Positions 1 to 11,376 of a DNA stretch of 11,376 bases are shown here, piece after piece. The notes beneath the pieces were generated by a model that did not search any database, was not told the DNA's origin, and saw only the letters and a list, made by a program, of their open reading frames with translations. A program made the position numbers and the translations under genes. The stretch spans positions 1 to 11,376 of the forward strand of contig PLSZ01000185.1 in assembly GCA_003164305.1 (NCBI GenBank), read 5' to 3'. Every line of letters begins with the position of its first letter. The first letter of the stretch is position 1. Source of the stretch: Acetobacteraceae bacterium. Its GTDB lineage: Bacteria; Pseudomonadota; Alphaproteobacteria; Acetobacterales; Acetobacteraceae.

Positions 1-2809
1 CCGGAGCACCGGCCGCGAGCGATCGGCGCAACGCGGGCAAACGGTGGAACAGATCGGCGATGCATTCCTCCACCATCTCGGCCAGTTCATCCGGCTTGAT
101 GTTGGCGCGCAGTTCCGCGATGCGCTCGGCGGCCAGGATCGGGATCCCCTCCTCGGTTTCCTGTTCAAGCCCAGGCATGGAGCCAAGACCGGGGGAGGAA
201 GAGCGGCTGAGCCAGACCTGGCGGCCGATGGCGGCGGTGAGGTCTTCCAGGGTCGGTGGGTCGGGCAAAATCTCGTCCACGCCAATGTCGCGCCAGGCGC
301 GCGCGTCGGCCTCATCGTGCGGTGGTGCGAGCACGACCACGGGAATCGTTCTGGCTGGCCCCTGATTTTCGCGCACGGTCGCCAGCACAGACGCCAGGGT
401 CATGTCAGGCAGCACGGAGTCCAGAAACAGGATGTCATATGGAGCGTCGCGTAACGCCTGGACCGCTTCCTCGCCGGTGGTCACGGCGTCCACCATGTGG
501 CTGTCGCGGCGCAACATGGTCACGGCGGCCATGCGCAGACCGGTTGGTTCGCCGACCAACAGCACGCGCGTACGTGGCAGCGGGCGACCCTCGGCGGGTG
601 CCTGTCCGGGGGCTCGCCCGCGCTGACCGGGCAGCACTTCCATGGGTAATGTCAGGATGAAATCGTTGCCGGTGCGGCCGTCGCTTGTCGACCACCCCTC
701 GCACCGCAATTGTCCGCCCATCAACCCCGTCAGATGCCGCGCGATCGCTGGGCCGAGGCCAGTGCCCCGCCGATAAATGTCGCCCGTGGCTTCGCCCTCG
801 TCCCGTACTTCGATCTCGTGCAAAGCGGGGAAGATGCCGGCGCGCTTCGCGTCGGGGATTGGCGTGCCGAAGCCGCGGATGGTCAGCCGCAGAGCGATCG
901 GTTCGCCATACTCATCCTCGCCGCCATCGGCGATCAGCCACATCGTGTCAGGCGAGGCGAACCGCACCGCCTCGGACAGCAGCAGCATGACGATCTGGCG
1001 GAGCCGGTCGGGGTCGATAATCAATTCGGCCGGCGCCGCTTCGTTGACGATCGAATATACCGTGACGCCGCGATCGTGCGCCGCCGGTTGGATGGTATCG
1101 ACGATGTCCCGCAACATCGGACGCACGCTGATCAACGCCGGCCGCGGCACCACCGCGTTGGCTTCCATCAGAGGCACTTCGATCGCGTCGGTGGCGAGAT
1201 GGCCCAGACTCGCGGCGGCCCGCCGCACGCGTTCGATCGCCGGACGGTTCGCCGGCACCTCGATCTCCCCCAGCCGCGCGATCGACCGCGTCAGCGTGGC
1301 GACGCGCGCGCGCAACTCATAGGAAATGACGCCGAGGAAACGCAGCCGGGAGGATTGCTCGCGCAGCAAAACGTCCCGCGCGTCGCGCAGTGCCTGCCGC
1401 GCGCGGCGCCCTTCGGTCACGTCGGAGTACAATGCGACGAAACCGCCCTCGGCGAGGGGGCGGCAGCGCAGTTCGATCACCCGGTCGTGGGCGGTGAAGG
1501 TTTGGCTGGTGCCGAAATTACCGGCCCGTAGCAACGCCGCCCGGCGGTCCACTTCCGCGTCCACATCCGCCACCGGCCCGAAATATCCGGCTTCGGCCTG
1601 CATGCGCAGCACATCTTCCATCGGCATGCCGGTCCGGATGAAGCTGGCGTTGATGCCGGCGTGTTCGGGAAACAACGCGCTCCATTCAACGAGATATAAA
1701 TGCGCGTCGAAGATCGCGATGCCGTCCGAGACAGCCGCGAATGTCGCCAGCATGCGCCGCGAGACGGCGTCCGCCTGCGCACGAGAGACCTCGGCCAGCG
1801 CGTTTGCGGCGGCGAACCTGGCCTGCGCTTCCCGGTCCCGCGCGGCACGGCGCCGGCTGGCGCCCAACATGCTGATCAACAGCAGGCTGATGATCAATGT
1901 CAGCAGCGTCACGCAGCCGGCGAAGATTCGGGACTGCCATTGCCAGGCGATGACCGGACGCATCGCCTCTTCGCGATCGATGCCGGCGATCACCGCCAGA
2001 TCGCGGCCCGGCAGCCGGCGGAAGGCGTGAATTCGGACCACGGCGTCGGAAGCGGACGGCCCCACCCAAACACCAGAGTCGCCGGCATCGACCACGCCGA
2101 ACATCGGTGTGTCGGCGATACTGGCGTCCTGGCTGCCCGCGGCCGAACCAAATGTCGCTCGCAGCTTGCCGTCCGTCAGATCGATCAAGGCGGCGAACCC
2201 GTTGCCGGGCGGACTCGCACCGGAGAACACCTCGGTGATCGCCGACACCCGGTAATCGGCGTCGATGATGCCCGCGAAGGAGCCATCGGGGTGGTGCAGG
2301 GTACGCGCCGCGTCCAGGTGCCATTGGCGCATGATCGGATTGACCGTGGCGGCGCCAAGAAACAGTTTCGGTTTGTCGTTGGTATGCTCGGCGGCGTCGC
2401 GGAACACATCCAGGTCAGCGACGCCCTGACCGATGAAGTCGGACACGGACGACTGGCGAATGATCCCGTTCTCGTCCGCCAGGAACATGTCGCGGGAAAT
2501 GCCGTTCAGGATCCGCGCCCGGGACCGGGCGTTTTCCAGATTGAAGCGGCGCGGGTCCGACTCATACTCCTGAACCATCATCTCGAGGGTCTGATCGAGC
2601 GCCAGGATTTGCCGGTTGATCTGCTCGCTGTAGTTGGCGGCGAGGCCGGTCGCGGTCGCGTCCGTTCGCTGGATCGTGTCAAGCCGCCGCGCCTCGGTGG
2701 TTATCCGCGCGGCATACCAGACAGCGCCGATGATCGCCCCGGCCGTCGCGAGGATCAGCAGGACAGCCAGCAGAGCGCGGGTGGAGCGCAGGAGACCGGG
2801 CAGCTTCAC
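1..2809 (-). CDS. Membrane hybrid sensor kinase with degenerate catalytic core (partial, runs off left edge)
   Basis: This frame is open for 936 codons from GTG 2809 to the left edge. In order it reads: TM1 (about 9-32); a periplasmic dCache-like sensor (about 35-285, with FLADENGII and a GRDL strand near its end); TM2 (295-316); a short coiled stretch; a PAS_7-like domain (about 353-475); a HisKA-like helix pair (about 485-560); HATPase (about 595-725); receiver (about 745-865); and the first helix of an HPt domain from 897. The usual FLxxxSHELRTPL H-box reads FLGVISYELRARV, so the phospho-acceptor is Tyr497. N-box Asn is Glu613 and the G1 Asp is Ile644, while the G2 box GTGLG (682-686) is intact. 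The receiver keeps Asp797 but has Gly753, Ala828 and Asp850 where Asp, Thr/Ser and Lys are expected. An in-frame TGA lies just upstream, so GTG is the first possible start. Ligand and output are unknown. It may be a signal-sensing pseudokinase or scaffold. Confidence 0.88.
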   Translation of the reverse strand, partial: MKLPGLLRSTRALLAVLLILATAGAIIGAVWYAARITTEARRLDTIQRTDATATGLAANYSEQINRQILALDQTLEMMVQEYESDPRRFNLENARSRARILNGISRDMFLADENGIIRQSSVSDFIGQGVADLDVFRDAAEHTNDKPKLFLGAATVNPIMRQWHLDAARTLHHPDGSFAGIIDADYRVSAITEVFSGASPPGNGFAALIDLTDGKLRATFGSAAGSQDASIADTPMFGVVDAGDSGVWVGPSASDAVVRIHAFRRLPGRDLAVIAGIDREEAMRPVIAWQWQSRIFAGCVTLLTLIISLLLISMLGASRRRAARDREAQARFAAANALAEVSRAQADAVSRRMLATFAAVSDGIAIFDAHLYLVEWSALFPEHAGINASFIRTGMPMEDVLRMQAEAGYFGPVADVDAEVDRRAALLRAGNFGTSQTFTAHDRVIELRCRPLAEGGFVALYSDVTEGRRARQALRDARDVLLREQSSRLRFLGVISYELRARVATLTRSIARLGEIEVPANRPAIERVRRAAASLGHLATDAIEVPLMEANAVVPRPALISVRPMLRDIVDTIQPAAHDRGVTVYSIVNEAAPAELIIDPDRLRQIVMLLLSEAVRFASPDTMWLIADGGEDEYGEPIALRLTIRGFGTPIPDAKRAGIFPALHEIEVRDEGEATGDIYRRGTGLGPAIARHLTGLMGGQLRCEGWSTSDGRTGNDFILTLPMEVLPGQRGRAPGQAPAEGRPLPRTRVLLVGEPTGLRMAAVTMLRRDSHMVDAVTTGEEAVQALRDAPYDILFLDSVLPDMTLASVLATVRENQGPARTIPVVVLAPPHDEADARAWRDIGVDEILPDPPTLEDLTAAIGRQVWLSRSSSPGLGSMPGLEQETEEGIPILAAERIAELRANIKPDELAEMVEECIADLFHRLPALRRSLAAGAP

Positions 2810-3033: not shown

Positions 3034-3103
3034 CCCACTGGAGCCATGAGGTAAGGAAACGCTTCACCGGCTGGGGAGACGAGTTTGCGGAACCACGTTG
3101 ATT

Positions 3104-3265
3104 CAGCCCGCCGACGGCGAGCAGCAACACCGTGATGAAACCGGCGCGCCGCGGAATGTGCCATTTCATGCGAGTGGCGAGGCGCGTGGTCTCCTCTTGT
3201 TCCATCGCCACGATCAGGATCAGGTCGCGGCCGGGAACGCGGCTCCAGGCGTACAGCCGGGTCAC
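3104..3265 (-). pseudogene. Decayed fragment of a second dCache sensor (sensor end plus TM2)
   Basis: Reading on the minus strand gives RLYAWSRVPGRDLILIV, then a charged segment, then a hydrophobic helix (FITVLLLAVGGL). The same order occurs in the neighbouring kinase just before and in its TM2 (RIHAFRRLPGRDLAVIA, then IFAGCVTLLTLI). The fragment therefore looks like the last part of a dCache domain and the second membrane helix of a paralogous sensor. It is cut off by an in-frame TGA upstream, and nothing kinase-like follows downstream before 2834. It has no plausible start or full domain. The simplest reading is the leftover of a tandem sensor gene lost by deletion. Confidence 0.6.
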
Positions 3266-3333
3266 CGGTCAATGGCCCGAAGGTTCCGAATAGATCGCTT
3301 GCATCGAAATTTGCCGAAAGGGTCGGGACGGAG

Positions 3334-4323
3334 ATGGCGCCGCATCCTCAACGACTAACAGTCACCCGCCGTGCGTGGCCGCTTATGACCGCGCACGGGG
3401 TCAAGACCGCGGTCGACGTCGTTGTCGCCGAAATCTCCGATGGCGACTCACGTGGCCGCGGCGAAGGCGTACCTCTTTGGCGATACGGCGAGAGCATTGA
3501 CAGCGTCGTCGCCGCGCTGGATGCGATGAAGGGCGCGGTCTTCTCGGGGCTCAATCGCGAGACACTGCAACATGCGATGCCGCCGGGCGCGGCGCGCAAC
3601 GCGCTCGACTGCGCGTTCTGGGACATCGATGCGAAGCGCGCTTTTCGAAGTGTCGCGGAGCTGGCCGGGCTCGGCGCGGTGCCGCCGCTGTTGACGGCGT
3701 TCACGGTTGGGTTCGATACGCCGGACAAGATGGCTGACCTGGCGGCCGCCAATCGCGCCCGGCCTCTGCTGCGATTGGAGCTGGGTGGCGACGGCGATGT
3801 CGAACGGGTGCGGGCGGTGCGGCAGGCGGTGCCGACGTCGCGTCTCATCGTCGATGCCAATGAGAGCTGGAATGAAGCCCGGTTTCGCGCGTTCATGCCG
3901 GCGCTGGTCGATTGCAGGGTCGAACTGATAGAGCAGCCGCTGCCGGCCGGCGCTGATGACGCGCTGGCGCGGTTGGAGCATGCGATCCCACTCTGCGCTG
4001 ACTGCTCCTGCCGGACGCTGGCCGATCTCGACCGGCTCGACGGGAAATACGAGGTCATCAATATCAAGCTCGACAAGGCGGGTGGGCTGACCGAGGCGCT
4101 CGCGCTGGCCTCGGTTGCGAAGCGGCGCGGCGTGCGGATCATGGTCGGCGGTGCGATCGGCACGTCGCTTGGGATCGCGCCGGCGCTGCTCGTCGCGCGG
4201 CTTGCCGAGATCGTCGATCTCGACGGGCCGTTGCATTTGGCATCCGATCGCGTTCCGGGGCTGCGGTATGAGGGCAGCACGATCTGTCCGCCCGATGCGA
4301 ATCTTTGGGGCGGACCCGGTTGA
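3334..4323 (+). CDS. dgcA: DgcA-like dipeptide epimerase (enolase superfamily) with altered catalytic motif
   Basis: The 329-residue protein follows the L-Ala-D/L-Glu epimerase pattern: capping domain with ARNALDCAFWDIDAK, metal ligands Asp174 (VDANESW), Glu200 (LIEQPLP) and Asp223 (CADCS), the second catalytic Lys245 (NIKLDKAGGL), GTSLGIAPA, and the C-terminal DLDGPL motif that recognises the dipeptide amino group. The family epimerises L-Ala-D-Glu from murein to L-Ala-L-Glu for recycling in the cytoplasm. Here the KxK motif of the second barrel strand, whose second Lys is a catalytic base, is Arg147-Leu148-Glu149, and the usual DES is DCS. Two-base epimerisation should therefore be impaired, and the protein may be inactive or altered. 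ATG 3334 follows a GGAG placed rather close to it. Homology begins at residue 7, supporting this start. A partial second copy lies at 5231-5356. Confidence 0.85.
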   Translation: MAPHPQRLTVTRRAWPLMTAHGVKTAVDVVVAEISDGDSRGRGEGVPLWRYGESIDSVVAALDAMKGAVFSGLNRETLQHAMPPGAARNALDCAFWDIDAKRAFRSVAELAGLGAVPPLLTAFTVGFDTPDKMADLAAANRARPLLRLELGGDGDVERVRAVRQAVPTSRLIVDANESWNEARFRAFMPALVDCRVELIEQPLPAGADDALARLEHAIPLCADCSCRTLADLDRLDGKYEVINIKLDKAGGLTEALALASVAKRRGVRIMVGGAIGTSLGIAPALLVARLAEIVDLDGPLHLASDRVPGLRYEGSTICPPDANLWGGPG

Positions 4324-4409: not shown

Positions 4410-4550
4410 CCTCGCGCAGCGCGAAAATCAAGAATGTTTCAACAAACCCAGGCCCGTGAAAACAAAGCGATTTTCGGTTGCGTCATTCCGTTGCGGAAGG
4501 GAGATGGCAGTCACCGGCTGCTTCGGGGTTTTTTGTGCTATAAGGGGATC

Positions 4551-4847
4551 ATGGATCGGCGGGATATCATCGCCCGGTTGCGGGAGAACGAGGCGGCGCT
4601 AAGGGCGCGCGGAGTCGCGCACGGGGCGCTGTTCGGCTCGCGTGCCCGTGGCGACGCCCGTCCTGACAGTGATACCGACATCATGATCGAGATCGATCCC
4701 GAGGCGCCGGTCGGAGTCTACGAGTATGTCCGCATCAAAGAATACATCGCCAACCTGTTCGACGGGCCGGTCGATGTCGTGGATCGTGAGGGATTAAAGC
4801 CTTACGTCAGACCGGCCGCCACGTCGGACGCCATCTATGCCTTCTGA
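4551..4847 (+). CDS. mntA: MntA-type nucleotidyltransferase antitoxin
   Basis: This 98-residue protein is a minimal nucleotidyltransferase. The signature GSRARGD (29-35) followed by Asp41 and Asp43 fits GSx10DxD exactly, and these acidic residues bind the metal and nucleotide. In MntA/HepT systems such proteins neutralise the HEPN toxin by transferring AMP to a tyrosine near its active site. AAGGGG (4543-4548) lies 2 nt before the ATG; the same bases overlap a TGCTATAAG that resembles an extended -10 element, so a near-leaderless transcript is possible. The reading frame is open further upstream to 4434, but family homology starts only here. The toxin gene overlaps the 3' end by 11 bp. Confidence 0.85.
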   Translation: MDRRDIIARLRENEAALRARGVAHGALFGSRARGDARPDSDTDIMIEIDPEAPVGVYEYVRIKEYIANLFDGPVDVVDREGLKPYVRPAATSDAIYAF

Positions 4848-5193
4848 GCGCGAGGCAACCCGCCGCTGGCCTGGCGATATCCAGCACCACATAGCAATGG
4901 CCGAGGGCTTCGTTGCCGGCATTGGCTATGACTCCTTCAAGGATGACAATTTGCGTCTCTATGCCGTGACGCGGTGCCTTGAGATCATCTCCGAGGCATC
5001 GCGCCGGTTGCCGGACGAGGTGAAAACGCGGCATCCGTCGATCGCGTGGCGAGAAATGGCGGCGGCGGGTAATATCTATCGGCATGAGTACGAAGATGTG
5101 GCCGCCCGTCGCGTGTGGCGCACTCTTACCATCAGCTTGCCGCCGTTGCGTGCTGTCGTCGAAGCGGAACTGGTTGCGCTGGGTGCCGCGTGA
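4837..5193 (+). CDS. hepT: HepT-like (DUF86) HEPN ribonuclease toxin, atypical motif
   Basis: The 118-residue protein has the all-helical layout of DUF86/HepT: an N-terminal helix (DIQHHIAMAEGF), a central amphipathic helix (RLYAVTRCLEIISEASRRLP), then AWREMAAAGN and the active-site region YRHEYEDV (81-88). In the usual toxins RX4-6H starts with Arg at the position occupied here by Gly78; Asn79, His83 and the AMPylation-type Tyr85 are kept and Arg82 sits directly before the His. From memory, GNxxRHxYD-type HepT proteins form a recurrent subgroup, so this is probably a variant and not a dead toxin. The ATG lies inside the antitoxin gene (11-bp overlap, different frame), which points to translational coupling. 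Confidence 0.8.
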   Translation: MPSEREATRRWPGDIQHHIAMAEGFVAGIGYDSFKDDNLRLYAVTRCLEIISEASRRLPDEVKTRHPSIAWREMAAAGNIYRHEYEDVAARRVWRTLTISLPPLRAVVEAELVALGAA

Positions 5194-6837: not shown

Positions 6838-7236
6838 TCAGAGGCCGTTGACCACACGTCTGATTTCGAGACGTGATTTGCCGAAGTTAAGCAGCAGACA
6901 GAGTCGTAGACCGGTCGCCTTGAGATAATTGGTACATTGCATCCTGTGGGTGTCGTCCAATGCTTTGACGGTCTTGAGCTCGACCAGAAGCACGTCCTCG
7001 ACAAGGACGTCCGGGAAATACTCGCCGACCACCACGTCATGGTAAAGCACCCTGACGCCAGGTTGCTGGACAATCGCGAGGCCAGCATCACGCATTTCGA
7101 TCGCCAGTGCATTTTCATAGACTTTTTCAAGGAAGCCGGCGCCGAGCGTATTGAGTACCGTGAACGCACAGCCGATCACCCGTCCCGATAGATCGTTCAG
7201 CAGCACGGCGTTATCTGCGTGTTCGGCGTGAATCAT
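6838..7236 (-). CDS. GxxExxY family protein (PDDEXK-like fold)
   Basis: The 132-residue protein carries the family signature GFLEKVY (34-40) and the nuclease-like strand pair with Asp76 and Glu86-Leu-Lys88 (FPDVLVEDVLLVELK), followed by the usual YLKATGLRLCLLLNFG. GxxExxY proteins are predicted PDDEXK-like but their substrate is unknown to me. ATG 7236 is the first ATG of the frame; a TTG at 7281 would add 15 residues. No good Shine-Dalgarno sequence is seen. The first codons, MIHAEHAD, are encoded by inverted-repeat arm B, and the stop lies 14 nt beyond arm A. The gene therefore looks like the only cargo of a 500-bp cassette (6768-7267). Confidence 0.85.
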   Translation of the reverse strand: MIHAEHADNAVLLNDLSGRVIGCAFTVLNTLGAGFLEKVYENALAIEMRDAGLAIVQQPGVRVLYHDVVVGEYFPDVLVEDVLLVELKTVKALDDTHRMQCTNYLKATGLRLCLLLNFGKSRLEIRRVVNGL

Positions 7237-7267
7237 TCTTGTATCTGCGCTAAAAACCTTACTTCGC
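7213..7267 (-). repeat. Inverted-repeat arm B of the GxxExxY element, containing the start codon
   Basis: On the minus strand this arm has GCGAAGTAAG, TTTTTAGCGC, AGATACAAGA, the ATG of the GxxExxY gene, then ATTCACGCCGAACACGCAGAT. It matches arm A (6768-6824) in reverse orientation with about 80 percent identity by eye, including an exact 12-nt end (GAACACGCAGAT). Confidence 0.75.
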
Positions 7268-7409
7268 GATGCTCCCAGCAAAAGGTCAAAGAAGTGTTAA
7301 CCCGCCCATGATGCGGCAGCCGCGTGAAGCGCGCACGATGGACTTGGCTGCCCGCCAGTATTGGAACGCCTCGCACTGTCGTTCGATCACACCTCGAAGG
7401 CCACCAGTC
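7268..7409. other. Short non-coding gap
   Basis: Between the GxxExxY element and the Uma2 gene I see no convincing gene, promoter or repeat. Short open frames here lack ribosome binding sites and recognisable motifs. Confidence 0.4.
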
Positions 7410-7994
7410 TCAATCGAAGTCAATCCCGGAATAAACCTCGTCAAGTGTCAGATCGATGCCAAATTCCGGCAGGCGAATGGGTCCGGCCGTGTCGGTGGCG
7501 TCCCGGTGCCACGCCTGCTCACCAGGTTCGCGCCAGAACGCACGGAATGACCGACTCTCGGATTCAACGACAACATAGCGGAGCATCGAGGGGACCGATT
7601 CGTACTCATCGACCTTCTCCTCGTCCCGTCGCCGATTACCCCGGACCGGCGAGACGACTTCAAATACAACAATCGGCGCCGGCACGGCGACCGCGTTCCG
7701 GTGCGGCCTGGAACACGCGATGAACGCGTCCGGCTCTCGCAGGGCGCCCCCGACTGTTTCGATCGCATCCTGTGGTCCATAGGTGTCGCATGGCGCGCCC
7801 GCCGGCAATCTGGGGCGGATAGAACCCCGGATGTTGCGACCAATCCGGTTGTGGCCAACGGTGGCTGGGGCCATCGCGACTGGCCGGAAACCGTCGAACT
7901 CGTATCGGCGGCCTTCCGGTTGGGTCTCAGCCCAGGCGAGGAACCGGCTCTGGCTCCATGAGTCCCAATCAATCTGTCGAGCGGCGACCGTCAT
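7410..7994 (-). CDS. Uma2 family (DUF820) PDDEXK endonuclease
   Basis: The 194-residue protein matches the Uma2/DUF820 pattern: YEFDG with Glu32, His48 in a VGHNRIGRNI segment, REPDAFIAC with Asp89, PIVVFEVVSPV with Glu112, and DEEKVDEYESVPS with Lys127, then the strand RYVVVESESRS. These positions correspond to the PDDEXK-type metal-binding core. The length is typical of the family. Targets are unknown; such genes are scattered, often multi-copy, in cyanobacteria and many GC-rich bacteria. ATG 7994 is at the family's usual N-terminus but has only a weak purine-rich stretch upstream. It stands alone on the minus strand and no operon partner is evident. Confidence 0.82.
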   Translation of the reverse strand: MTVAARQIDWDSWSQSRFLAWAETQPEGRRYEFDGFRPVAMAPATVGHNRIGRNIRGSIRPRLPAGAPCDTYGPQDAIETVGGALREPDAFIACSRPHRNAVAVPAPIVVFEVVSPVRGNRRRDEEKVDEYESVPSMLRYVVVESESRSFRAFWREPGEQAWHRDATDTAGPIRLPEFGIDLTLDEVYSGIDFD

Positions 7995-8362: not shown

Positions 8363-8860
8363 TCATCGCCTGGTCTGGTCTTCGTAGACCCCGATAACGA
8401 TGAGCCATGCACCCGAAATAAGGAACGCGAATAAAACAACGATTCCAATAGCCGCGATGTAAAGCCCCGCGGCATGTCCGAAAATCAGAAAAATCGCCCC
8501 TGTAACTTCCGCGAGGTAACACAGCGTGCCGCCCCCAAGCCGAGGCACATTCAATCCGATAAAGCTCACGCCTGCTTTGATTGCGACTACATAACCCCTG
8601 ATGAAGATGGCTGTCGCGATAAGCCAGAGGACAAGCCACTCAATGCCAAGCGCTCGAGGGGGTTGATTTCCGATAAGCGCGAAACCGCATGCCATGAAAA
8701 CCGCGGTGAAACCCGACAGCATATTAATCGCCCGGTTCTTATGTGTCGTGTTTCGGATAATGACTTCGGGATTGATCGACATCGCGACGAAAATCAAACC
8801 AGCAAGCGCCGCCGCTCCGCTGCCCACCATGACAAAGAAGTTGTCCCATCGATCCAACAT
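8363..8860 (-). CDS. Five-helix integral membrane protein of unknown function
   Basis: The 165-residue protein begins MLDRWDNFFVMVGSGAAALA and shows about five hydrophobic helices: 8-28, 46-63, 74-93, 108-127 and 131-157. The opening pattern (W-x-x-F-F-V-x-x-G-x-A-x-A-L-x-G-L-x-F-V-A-x-S) recurs in uncharacterised small membrane proteins, from memory, but no function is attached. ATG 8860 was chosen because the membrane pattern starts there; the frame is open far upstream (to 9064), and ATG 8887 is possible. The nearest Shine-Dalgarno-like stretch, a G-rich AGGGGGG, is about 9 nt from ATG 8860. A small hairpin (8891-8910) lies just upstream. No cytoplasmic domain or catalytic motif is seen. 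Confidence 0.7.
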   Translation of the reverse strand: MLDRWDNFFVMVGSGAAALAGLIFVAMSINPEVIIRNTTHKNRAINMLSGFTAVFMACGFALIGNQPPRALGIEWLVLWLIATAIFIRGYVVAIKAGVSFIGLNVPRLGGGTLCYLAEVTGAIFLIFGHAAGLYIAAIGIVVLFAFLISGAWLIVIGVYEDQTRR

Positions 8861-8890
8861 AAGATCCAACCCCCCTCTCCCAGGCATCGA

Positions 8891-8910
8891 TGAGCGTAGC
8901 GACACGCTCA
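8891..8910. repeat. 7-bp hairpin upstream of the membrane-protein gene
   Basis: TGAGCGT (8891-8897) and ACGCTCA (8904-8910) are exact reverse complements with a 6-nt loop. It lies 31-50 nt upstream of ATG 8860, so it would be in the leader of that transcript. It may equally be a chance or dispersed repeat. Confidence 0.35.
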
Positions 8911-9085
8911 GGGCTTGTGCCATCTTCGCATCCTGCCAGATTCGGTCGGAGTCGGTCATCGCCAAGAAGGCCGGGGGGCGGACCCTGGTGGCACTGGCTC
9001 GTGGGCACACGCCTGGCTCTGCCCGCGCCCGGCGCCCGAGTACAAGACGGAGGCGTGTGTTCAATCGCAGCCGACCGAATACCCC

Positions 9086-9968: not shown

Positions 9969-11376
<1,408 letters not shown>

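Follow-up and report, generated by a model that had tools for sequence, protein, structure and literature searches.

A degenerate hybrid histidine kinase of the Acetobacteraceae that may act as a membrane-bound phosphotransfer protein

We use alignment, phylogeny and comparison of evolutionary rates between domains to study a degenerate hybrid histidine kinase encoded at the left end of an 11,376-nucleotide stretch of DNA (here called the window) from an Acetobacteraceae bacterium (assembly GCA_003164305.1, contig PLSZ01000185.1). The gene, read from the minus strand, is an open frame of 936 codons that begins with GTG at position 2809 and runs off the left window edge at position 2. Its product has the layout of a tripartite hybrid kinase: a dCache sensor and a PAS_7 domain, followed by a dimerization and histidine phosphotransfer (DHp) hairpin, a catalytic and ATP-binding (CA) domain, a receiver (REC) and the start of a histidine phosphotransfer (HPt) domain. 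On balance, we think that this inactive kinase has probably turned into a membrane-bound HPt protein, a gated relay in the manner of RcsD that is charged by another kinase. In this mechanism, another hybrid kinase of the cell would give phosphate to His944 of the HPt domain, His944 would hand it to a response regulator, and the dCache and PAS input, acting through the dead body of DHp, CA and receiver, would set how available the HPt is.

Shared losses in the kinase core and receiver

The end of the gene is supplied by P0002, a full-length copy found by protein search (1009 aa, on a 51-kb contig) which differs from the window protein at 2 residues besides the start codon. It completes the HPt domain, and the HPt histidine that an earlier note, made from the window alone, had proposed to look for past the left edge is present as His944 in the motif THAMVGMAGGYG. 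The Pfam Hpt model is weak in P0002 (16 bits vs a cut-off of 24.6); the predicted structure is helical over the HPt, with mean predicted local distance difference test scores (pLDDT) of 84-94 for 10-residue blocks across residues 901-1000. Searching the PDB with just the HPt segment produced no convincing match (best kinase match E 0.31). In the window protein itself PAS_7, HATPase_c and Response_reg lie above the Pfam cut-offs and both dCache models below them, and HisKA gives no match at E<=1. Across 47 members of the group of close relatives defined below (clade A), dCache_1 is matched in 43 and dCache_1_like in all 47 (E<=0.01), Response_reg in 47 and HisKA in 4 (E<=0.01).

In an alignment of P0002 with 94 relatives (P0003 to P0096), 59 rows including P0002 make up clade A, whose other members are 51-81% identical to the window protein; the remaining 36 rows are 38-45% identical and are mostly canonical kinases. 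With gapped rows excluded throughout, the N-box Asn is replaced by an acid in 57/57 clade A rows (Glu in 54, Asp in 3; the window's own copy and fragments are counted) and the G1 Asp is missing in 57/57. In the clade A receiver, Thr has become Ala in 52/54 rows and Lys is left in 1/54, while the Asp is left in 54/54. The other 36 rows have the N-box Asn in 33/36, the G1 Asp in 35/36 and the HPt His in 31/35. For finer counts we use a set of 119 rows (49 clade A and 70 non-clade), to which genome loci were added and from which 10 clade A proteins shorter than 900 aa and 6 near-identical locus rows were excluded; its 70 non-clade rows have the N-box Asn in 64, the G1 Asp in 70, the receiver Asp in 66 and the HPt His in 64/69.

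Trees were built on sensor and PAS columns only, so that they are free of the residue traits under study. Clade A is monophyletic both in the 119-row tree (Shimodaira-Hasegawa-like approximate likelihood-ratio support, SH-aLRT, of 100) and in a 55-row tree built carefully under a mixture model, with 26 clade A rows (support 100/100); its stem is long in each (0.46 and 0.6, respectively). The clade is nested among canonical rows, and its protein shares 45% identity with the canonical P0059 over 981 columns, almost the full length, with identical domain order. The kinase degeneracy is old and common to one clade within a family of mostly intact kinases, and it is more than chance because the whole of clade A shows identical losses.

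Among clade A genes with DNA (window, L002, L036), the three pairs have a whole-gene ratio of nonsynonymous to synonymous rates (dN/dS) by the method of Nei and Gojobori (NG86) of 0.24, 0.29 and 0.32. The shared losses and the low dN/dS lead us to reject sequencing error or recent decay, and they bear out the earlier suggestion of a pseudokinase held by selection, with losses common to dozens of divergent relatives. Simple decay had been expected to show as orthologues with His at position 497 together with a dN/dS near 1; such orthologues do occur, and dN/dS is not near 1.

Measured against an active tripartite hybrid kinase, the window protein lacks the acceptor His, the N-box Asn with the G1 Asp, and most of the receiver pocket. 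A kinase without these ATP residues is not expected to use ATP, and the receiver is without most of the pocket that catalyses phosphotransfer. Reading the frame and its codons confirms Tyr497 (TAT at 1321-1319), E613, G753, D797, A828 and D850 where they had been placed, and the missing H-box Pro is Arg502 here. Two other assignments hold in part. The G1 Asp is indeed lost, at Gly646 by alignment with canonical relatives; Ile644, which had been named instead, falls in a hydrophobic column (Ile/Val in 49/49 clade A rows, Val/Leu in 70/70 others). In the same way, Gly753 is right and belongs to an acidic pair, 753/754, in which the acid is kept at Glu754. Across clade A this pair is mostly gone, and Thr and Lys are gone in nearly all rows. 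The first N-box Asn is lost too (Leu609 in the window; Asn in 0/49 clade A rows), and the G2 Gly-rich box is mostly retained. The CA domain carries, in addition, a set of residues specific to the clade: an acid at 613 in 49/49 rows, Arg616 in 48/49 and a small residue at 646 in 49/49, with which we count Arg645 (49/49 in clade A vs 41/70 elsewhere).

The earlier note had taken Tyr497 as the key change. That emphasis does not survive comparison: the acid in place of Asn and the loss of the G1 Asp are shared by the orthologues, and Tyr497 is not. Position 497 in the 49 clade A rows of at least 900 aa is His in 30, Phe in 8, Leu in 4, Tyr in 3, Lys in 2 and Val in 2. Parsimony requires 10 residue changes here, or 5 if scored as His vs not-His, and Tyr arises three separate times, each Tyr row adjoining relatives with another residue. 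Tyr497 is a late and variable change, since the closest relative, P0003 (81% identical), has His and since Phe, Leu, Val and Lys also occur; a functional tyrosine like that of DivL is rejected on the same grounds. Seventeen of the 19 replacements put a hydrophobic or aromatic residue at the site, as would suit packing within a helix bundle better than free drift. Taken together, the residue patterns suggest that the ATP site was lost once, on the clade A stem, and the acceptor His later and repeatedly.

Constraint on the domains and the readings it allows

Rates were compared on a fixed topology as tree length relative to dCache, and we give medians and 95% ranges of 100 column bootstraps. The first comparison takes 46 clade A rows (three without an HPt column were excluded) and 39 canonical rows; the latter were picked for canonical residues at six sites, so that counts at those sites are meaningless by themselves, and they also leave out L040 (which has canonical residues) and P0073. 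We find that the DHp is the fastest domain of clade A, at 1.51 (1.20-1.80) vs 0.70 (0.55-0.85) in canonical rows, and the HPt is the slowest, at 0.65 (0.50-0.87) vs 1.43 (1.11-1.87). REC rates are 1.22 (0.98-2.30) and 0.99 (0.74-1.33). When the test is repeated with 50 non-clade rows unselected by residue, dead branches included, the HPt gives 0.68 (0.50-0.98) in clade A vs 1.32 (0.99-1.72), the DHp 1.52 (1.27-1.80) vs 1.07 (0.78-1.37), and the ratio of HPt to DHp 0.45 (0.36-0.66) vs 1.24 (0.95-1.64). The HPt contrast holds without residue selection; the DHp contrast is smaller and its ranges overlap.

Pairwise identities at matched sensor identity agree with the rate pattern. HPt identity exceeds DHp identity in 1034/1082 clade A pairs vs 29/1653 canonical pairs, counts that are descriptive, the pairs not being independent. 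The HPt His is retained in 44/46 clade A rows of at least 900 aa (48/50 with fragments and the window's own copy; gapped rows excluded). HPt, PAS and sensor are the best guarded parts of clade A. Of the mechanisms put forward in the earlier note, relay through the HPt is the one that the rate pattern favours; the proposed route through Asp797 is doubtful, with Thr and Lys gone from almost all of clade A and the acidic pair mostly gone.

The same pattern recurs elsewhere in the family. In P0093, L054 and L055 the N-box Asn has become Ser and the receiver Asp has become Ala or Thr, and in P0094 the kinase His is Gln, the N-box Asn Tyr and the receiver Asp Arg; all four keep the HPt His. In the six pairs among these four, HPt identity is 0.68-0.95 vs 0.22-0.82 for the DHp, and these rows make one or two further dead branches that repeat the pattern of clade A.

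Several points count against a relay. We found no donor kinase and no acceptor regulator, and a close copy of P0122, a hybrid kinase that lies beside some canonical relatives (see below), is absent from the two clade A genomes searched (none at 1e-60 in G401; in G001 one partial 40% match elsewhere). The HPt His itself has become Gln in P0049 and P0053, both of clade A; the HPt motif is HxxVG, not HxxKG (though most other rows share HxxVG), and Pfam Hpt is matched in 15/47 clade A members (E<=0.01). The CA rate in clade A shows no extra relaxation (1.40 vs 1.42 in canonical rows). The DHp is relaxed but not free, with NG86 dN/dS of 0.23, 0.43 and 0.51, compared with about 0.08-0.19 for five canonical pairs; dS approaches saturation, and the NG86 figures are used because YN00 (the Yang and Nielsen estimator) failed on most comparisons. 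Asp797 never varies in clade A, despite the loss of most of its pocket, and a role for the HPt only would not need it. Finally, a small group forms the mirror image of the dead-kinase branches: P0075, P0083 and P0088 keep the kinase His and Asn and have Gln, Glu and Gln, respectively, at the HPt His. The HPt of this group shows no visible relaxation (its identity is 0.74-0.79 where sensor identity is 0.84-0.85; canonical pairs have 0.70 at 0.80-0.88), and therefore a conserved HPt is no proof of HPt catalysis. This group slightly lowers our confidence in the relay and slightly raises that in its main rival.

That rival, which is possible though in our estimate unlikely, is an allosteric pseudokinase of the DivL or RetS type: the dead DHp and CA domains would bind a partner kinase or a phosphorylated regulator and alter its activity, and the HPt would be secondary. 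DivL and RetS are the top structure matches of the modelled core, with active kinases tied or close behind, and the match is undiscriminating because active kinases fit the model almost equally well. Moreover, the DHp, the expected docking surface for a partner, evolves fastest in clade A and the HPt slowest.

The dead core seems still to do something specific, since Asp797 is invariant and the CA domain is unrelaxed and carries its clade-specific set; the equivalent of Asp797 is lost in the P0093 group and in P0094, unlike in clade A. One tentative and rather doubtful extension of the relay is that the ATP pocket has been rebuilt and not merely broken, so that the core, either as a lock free of nucleotide or as the receptor of a new ligand, would gate the HPt. 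The whole would be a change from kinase to gated relay beside isocitrate dehydrogenase, and at least one other branch would have made a similar switch.

It is improbable that the protein is a phosphate sink, its HPt draining a response regulator rather than feeding one. The anatomy would be identical to that of a relay, and HPt transfer is reversible in principle, but nothing in the data points to one direction of phosphate flow; the adjoining receiver, moreover, lacks most of the pocket with which to take and hydrolyse phosphate, and drainage through it would be unlikely. Quite improbable, too, is a kinase that is still active with an unusual ATP site or acceptor. The retained G2 box and the His at 497 in 30/49 rows speak for it, but the two Asn of the N-box and the G1 Asp are missing from 49/49 rows, the H-box residue varies, HisKA is rarely matched and the constraint on the DHp is lowered. 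Ordinary decay of a redundant kinase gene, the least probable reading, would account for the variable His497 (with His in the nearest relative) and the relaxed DHp, and one other branch may be true decay (P0091/L014, with N-box Asn to Ile, HPt His to Asn and one in-frame stop in L014, P0091 itself being a 1010-aa frame), but it sits badly with long open frames in 49 divergent rows, dN/dS of 0.24-0.32, an HPt slower than in canonical relatives and the hydrophobic or aromatic character of most replacements at 497.

Locus and neighbouring genes

Clade A and canonical kinase genes both lie near isocitrate dehydrogenase, of the monomeric or the dimeric type. A gene for this enzyme, or part of one, is found in the fetched stretch of 29/41 genome loci (mostly with 1.5 kb of flank), three of these matches being shorter than 100 residues (L016, L034 and L035), and longer stretches add it at two more loci (L042 and L049). 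Among genomes with a clade A kinase, G401 has a monomeric isocitrate dehydrogenase upstream of the kinase and G001 a truncated dimeric one. In the genus of G001 the clade A kinase occurs in 2/33 genomes, and 10 others have a canonical match at equal threshold; the kinase also occurs in 2/389 relatives of G401 (the same two genomes) and in 1/397 genomes of a family sample. It looks like an orthologue changed in place, with duplication followed by loss as a possible alternative origin; a side copy of an active paralogue is not favoured, the isocitrate-dehydrogenase-linked locus being common to both kinds. P0002 has its next match in G001 at 26% identity, and in G401 searches at 1e-200 and 1e-180, in which 25 and 2 candidates were scored, gave no second match. 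The HPt is not the sole one of its genome, a candidate ruled out by 12 matches in G001 and 6 in G401 (E<=0.01).

Between the kinase and an MR/MLE gene, the window holds a relic of a second dCache-type kinase gene (3113-3298, minus strand). L001 has the same kind of relic at 3076-3490 (plus strand), which aligns with residues 246-378 of P0061 at 38.7% and adjoins a truncated isocitrate dehydrogenase gene. Because of this related-kinase relic upstream, a tandem ancestor is possible.

A hybrid kinase of the P0122 family, which has HAMP, HisKA, HATPase and receiver domains but gives no match to Hpt, is encoded on the same contig a few kb from the canonical kinase in 6/12 genomes searched (Table 1 lists five loci), and it is a possible donor for the HPt of the canonical kinase. 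The copy in G359 carries an in-frame stop. As a donor for clade A, an adjacent kinase of this family was dropped, no close copy being found in the two clade A genomes searched. In the window, no hybrid-kinase or regulator partner was recognised beside the kinase on the one flank that the window covers.

Elsewhere in the window, overlapping nucleotidyltransferase and HepT-like genes (4434-4847 and 4837-5193, plus strand) form a pair that we take to be a likely MNT-HEPN toxin-antitoxin. A PDDEXK_3 gene (6838-7281, minus strand) and a Uma2 family gene (7410-7994, minus strand) lie between the kinase and isocitrate dehydrogenase, and an inserted stretch may have separated those two. A 233-aa frame (8363-9064, minus strand) has no Pfam match at E<=0.01 and by eye looks like a membrane protein.

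Table 1. Coordinates of the features discussed. Positions are those of the window unless a locus is named; row counts refer to the 119-row set.
Feature	Position	Strand	Remark
Pseudo-histidine-kinase gene, dCache-PAS_7-DHp-CA-REC-HPt	2..2809	-	3' end past left window edge, inside HPt
dCache sensor region, residues 40-290	1940..2692	-	Pfam dCache_1 below cut-off; borders set by us
PAS_7 domain, residues 359-471	1397..1735	-	Pfam, 75.8 bits
DHp-like helical hairpin, residues 480-560	1130..1372	-	No HisKA match; borders set by us
CA (HATPase-like) domain, residues 590-725	635..1042	-	HATPase_c 33.4 bits; predicted fold; ATP residues lost
Pseudo-receiver domain, residues 746-865	215..574	-	Response_reg 38.5 bits
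HPt start, residues 890-936	2..142	-	His944 beyond left edge, seen in P0002
Tyr497, phospho-acceptor His position, codon TAT	1319..1321	-	Codon read directly
Glu613 replacing N-box Asn	971..973	-	Acid in 49/49 clade A rows; Asn in 64/70 other rows
Gly646 replacing G1 Asp	872..874	-	Asp in 0/49 clade A rows, 70/70 other rows
Gly753-Glu754, receiver acidic pair	548..553	-	Gly at 753, acid retained at 754
Asp797, receiver phospho-acceptor position	419..421	-	Invariant in clade A: 49/49, 54/54 with fragments
Ala828, receiver Thr/Ser position	326..328	-	Ala in 47/49 clade A rows
Asp850, receiver Lys position	260..262	-	Lys in 1/49 clade A rows
Monomeric isocitrate dehydrogenase	9969..11375	-	7 kb from kinase; locus landmark common with canonical relatives
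P0122-family hybrid kinase, L044	189-2633		
P0122-family hybrid kinase, L045	9733-12330		
P0122-family hybrid kinase, L047	1805-4042		
P0122-family hybrid kinase, L048	1550-3955		
P0122-family hybrid kinase, L049	10575-13043		

Comparison with known systems

To our knowledge, most pseudo-histidine kinases described so far stand alone, DivL and RcsD being examples. Here, intact kinases occur together with a large dead clade and additional dead branches in one family at one kind of locus, so that a change from kinase to relay can be tested by comparing relatives, and the dead clade shows weaker constraint on the phospho-acceptor domain and stronger constraint on the HPt. In the titles and abstract openings of the open-access literature, we found no account of this family or of an isocitrate-dehydrogenase-linked kinase in Acetobacteraceae. 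Database names such as 'signal transduction histidine kinase' mislead for clade A.

The closest parallel to the proposed relay is RcsD, whose kinase domain is inactive; the His of its HPt receives phosphate from RcsC and passes it on to RcsB (PMC13317618, a preprint; PMC7418988). Clade A likewise joins an inactive kinase core to an HPt with a conserved His, a likeness drawn here from sequence, with Pfam Hpt below its cut-off in P0002. The two differ in that RcsD has an ABL domain, a model absent among the 7 families listed for P0002 (E<=0.1), whereas the clade A receiver still scores as Response_reg and keeps its Asp; the clade A protein also has dCache and PAS_7 input and has its origin within a kinase family of the Acetobacteraceae. 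GacS of Pseudomonas illustrates that one HPt can serve more than one kinase, since another kinase, LadS, uses the HPt of GacS (PMC4866733); GacS itself, however, is a working, autophosphorylating kinase.

DivL, a pseudokinase of Caulobacter that binds DivK~P and controls CckA, resembles the window protein in having Tyr at the acceptor His, and the DHp and CA fold is predicted to be kept (DivL is the first structure match of the model, tied with others). The Tyr of DivL is functionally important, its change impairing growth and morphology (PMC4211667), whereas Tyr is found in 3/49 clade A rows, as one of several replacements. The clade A protein differs further in its receiver and HPt and in the acid that replaces the N-box Asn. 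Nearest of all in build are the canonical dCache-PAS_7 tripartite hybrid kinases such as P0059, which share the domain order and, within the family, the isocitrate-dehydrogenase-linked locus, but which keep the H-box His, the N-box Asn, the G1 Asp and the receiver pocket.

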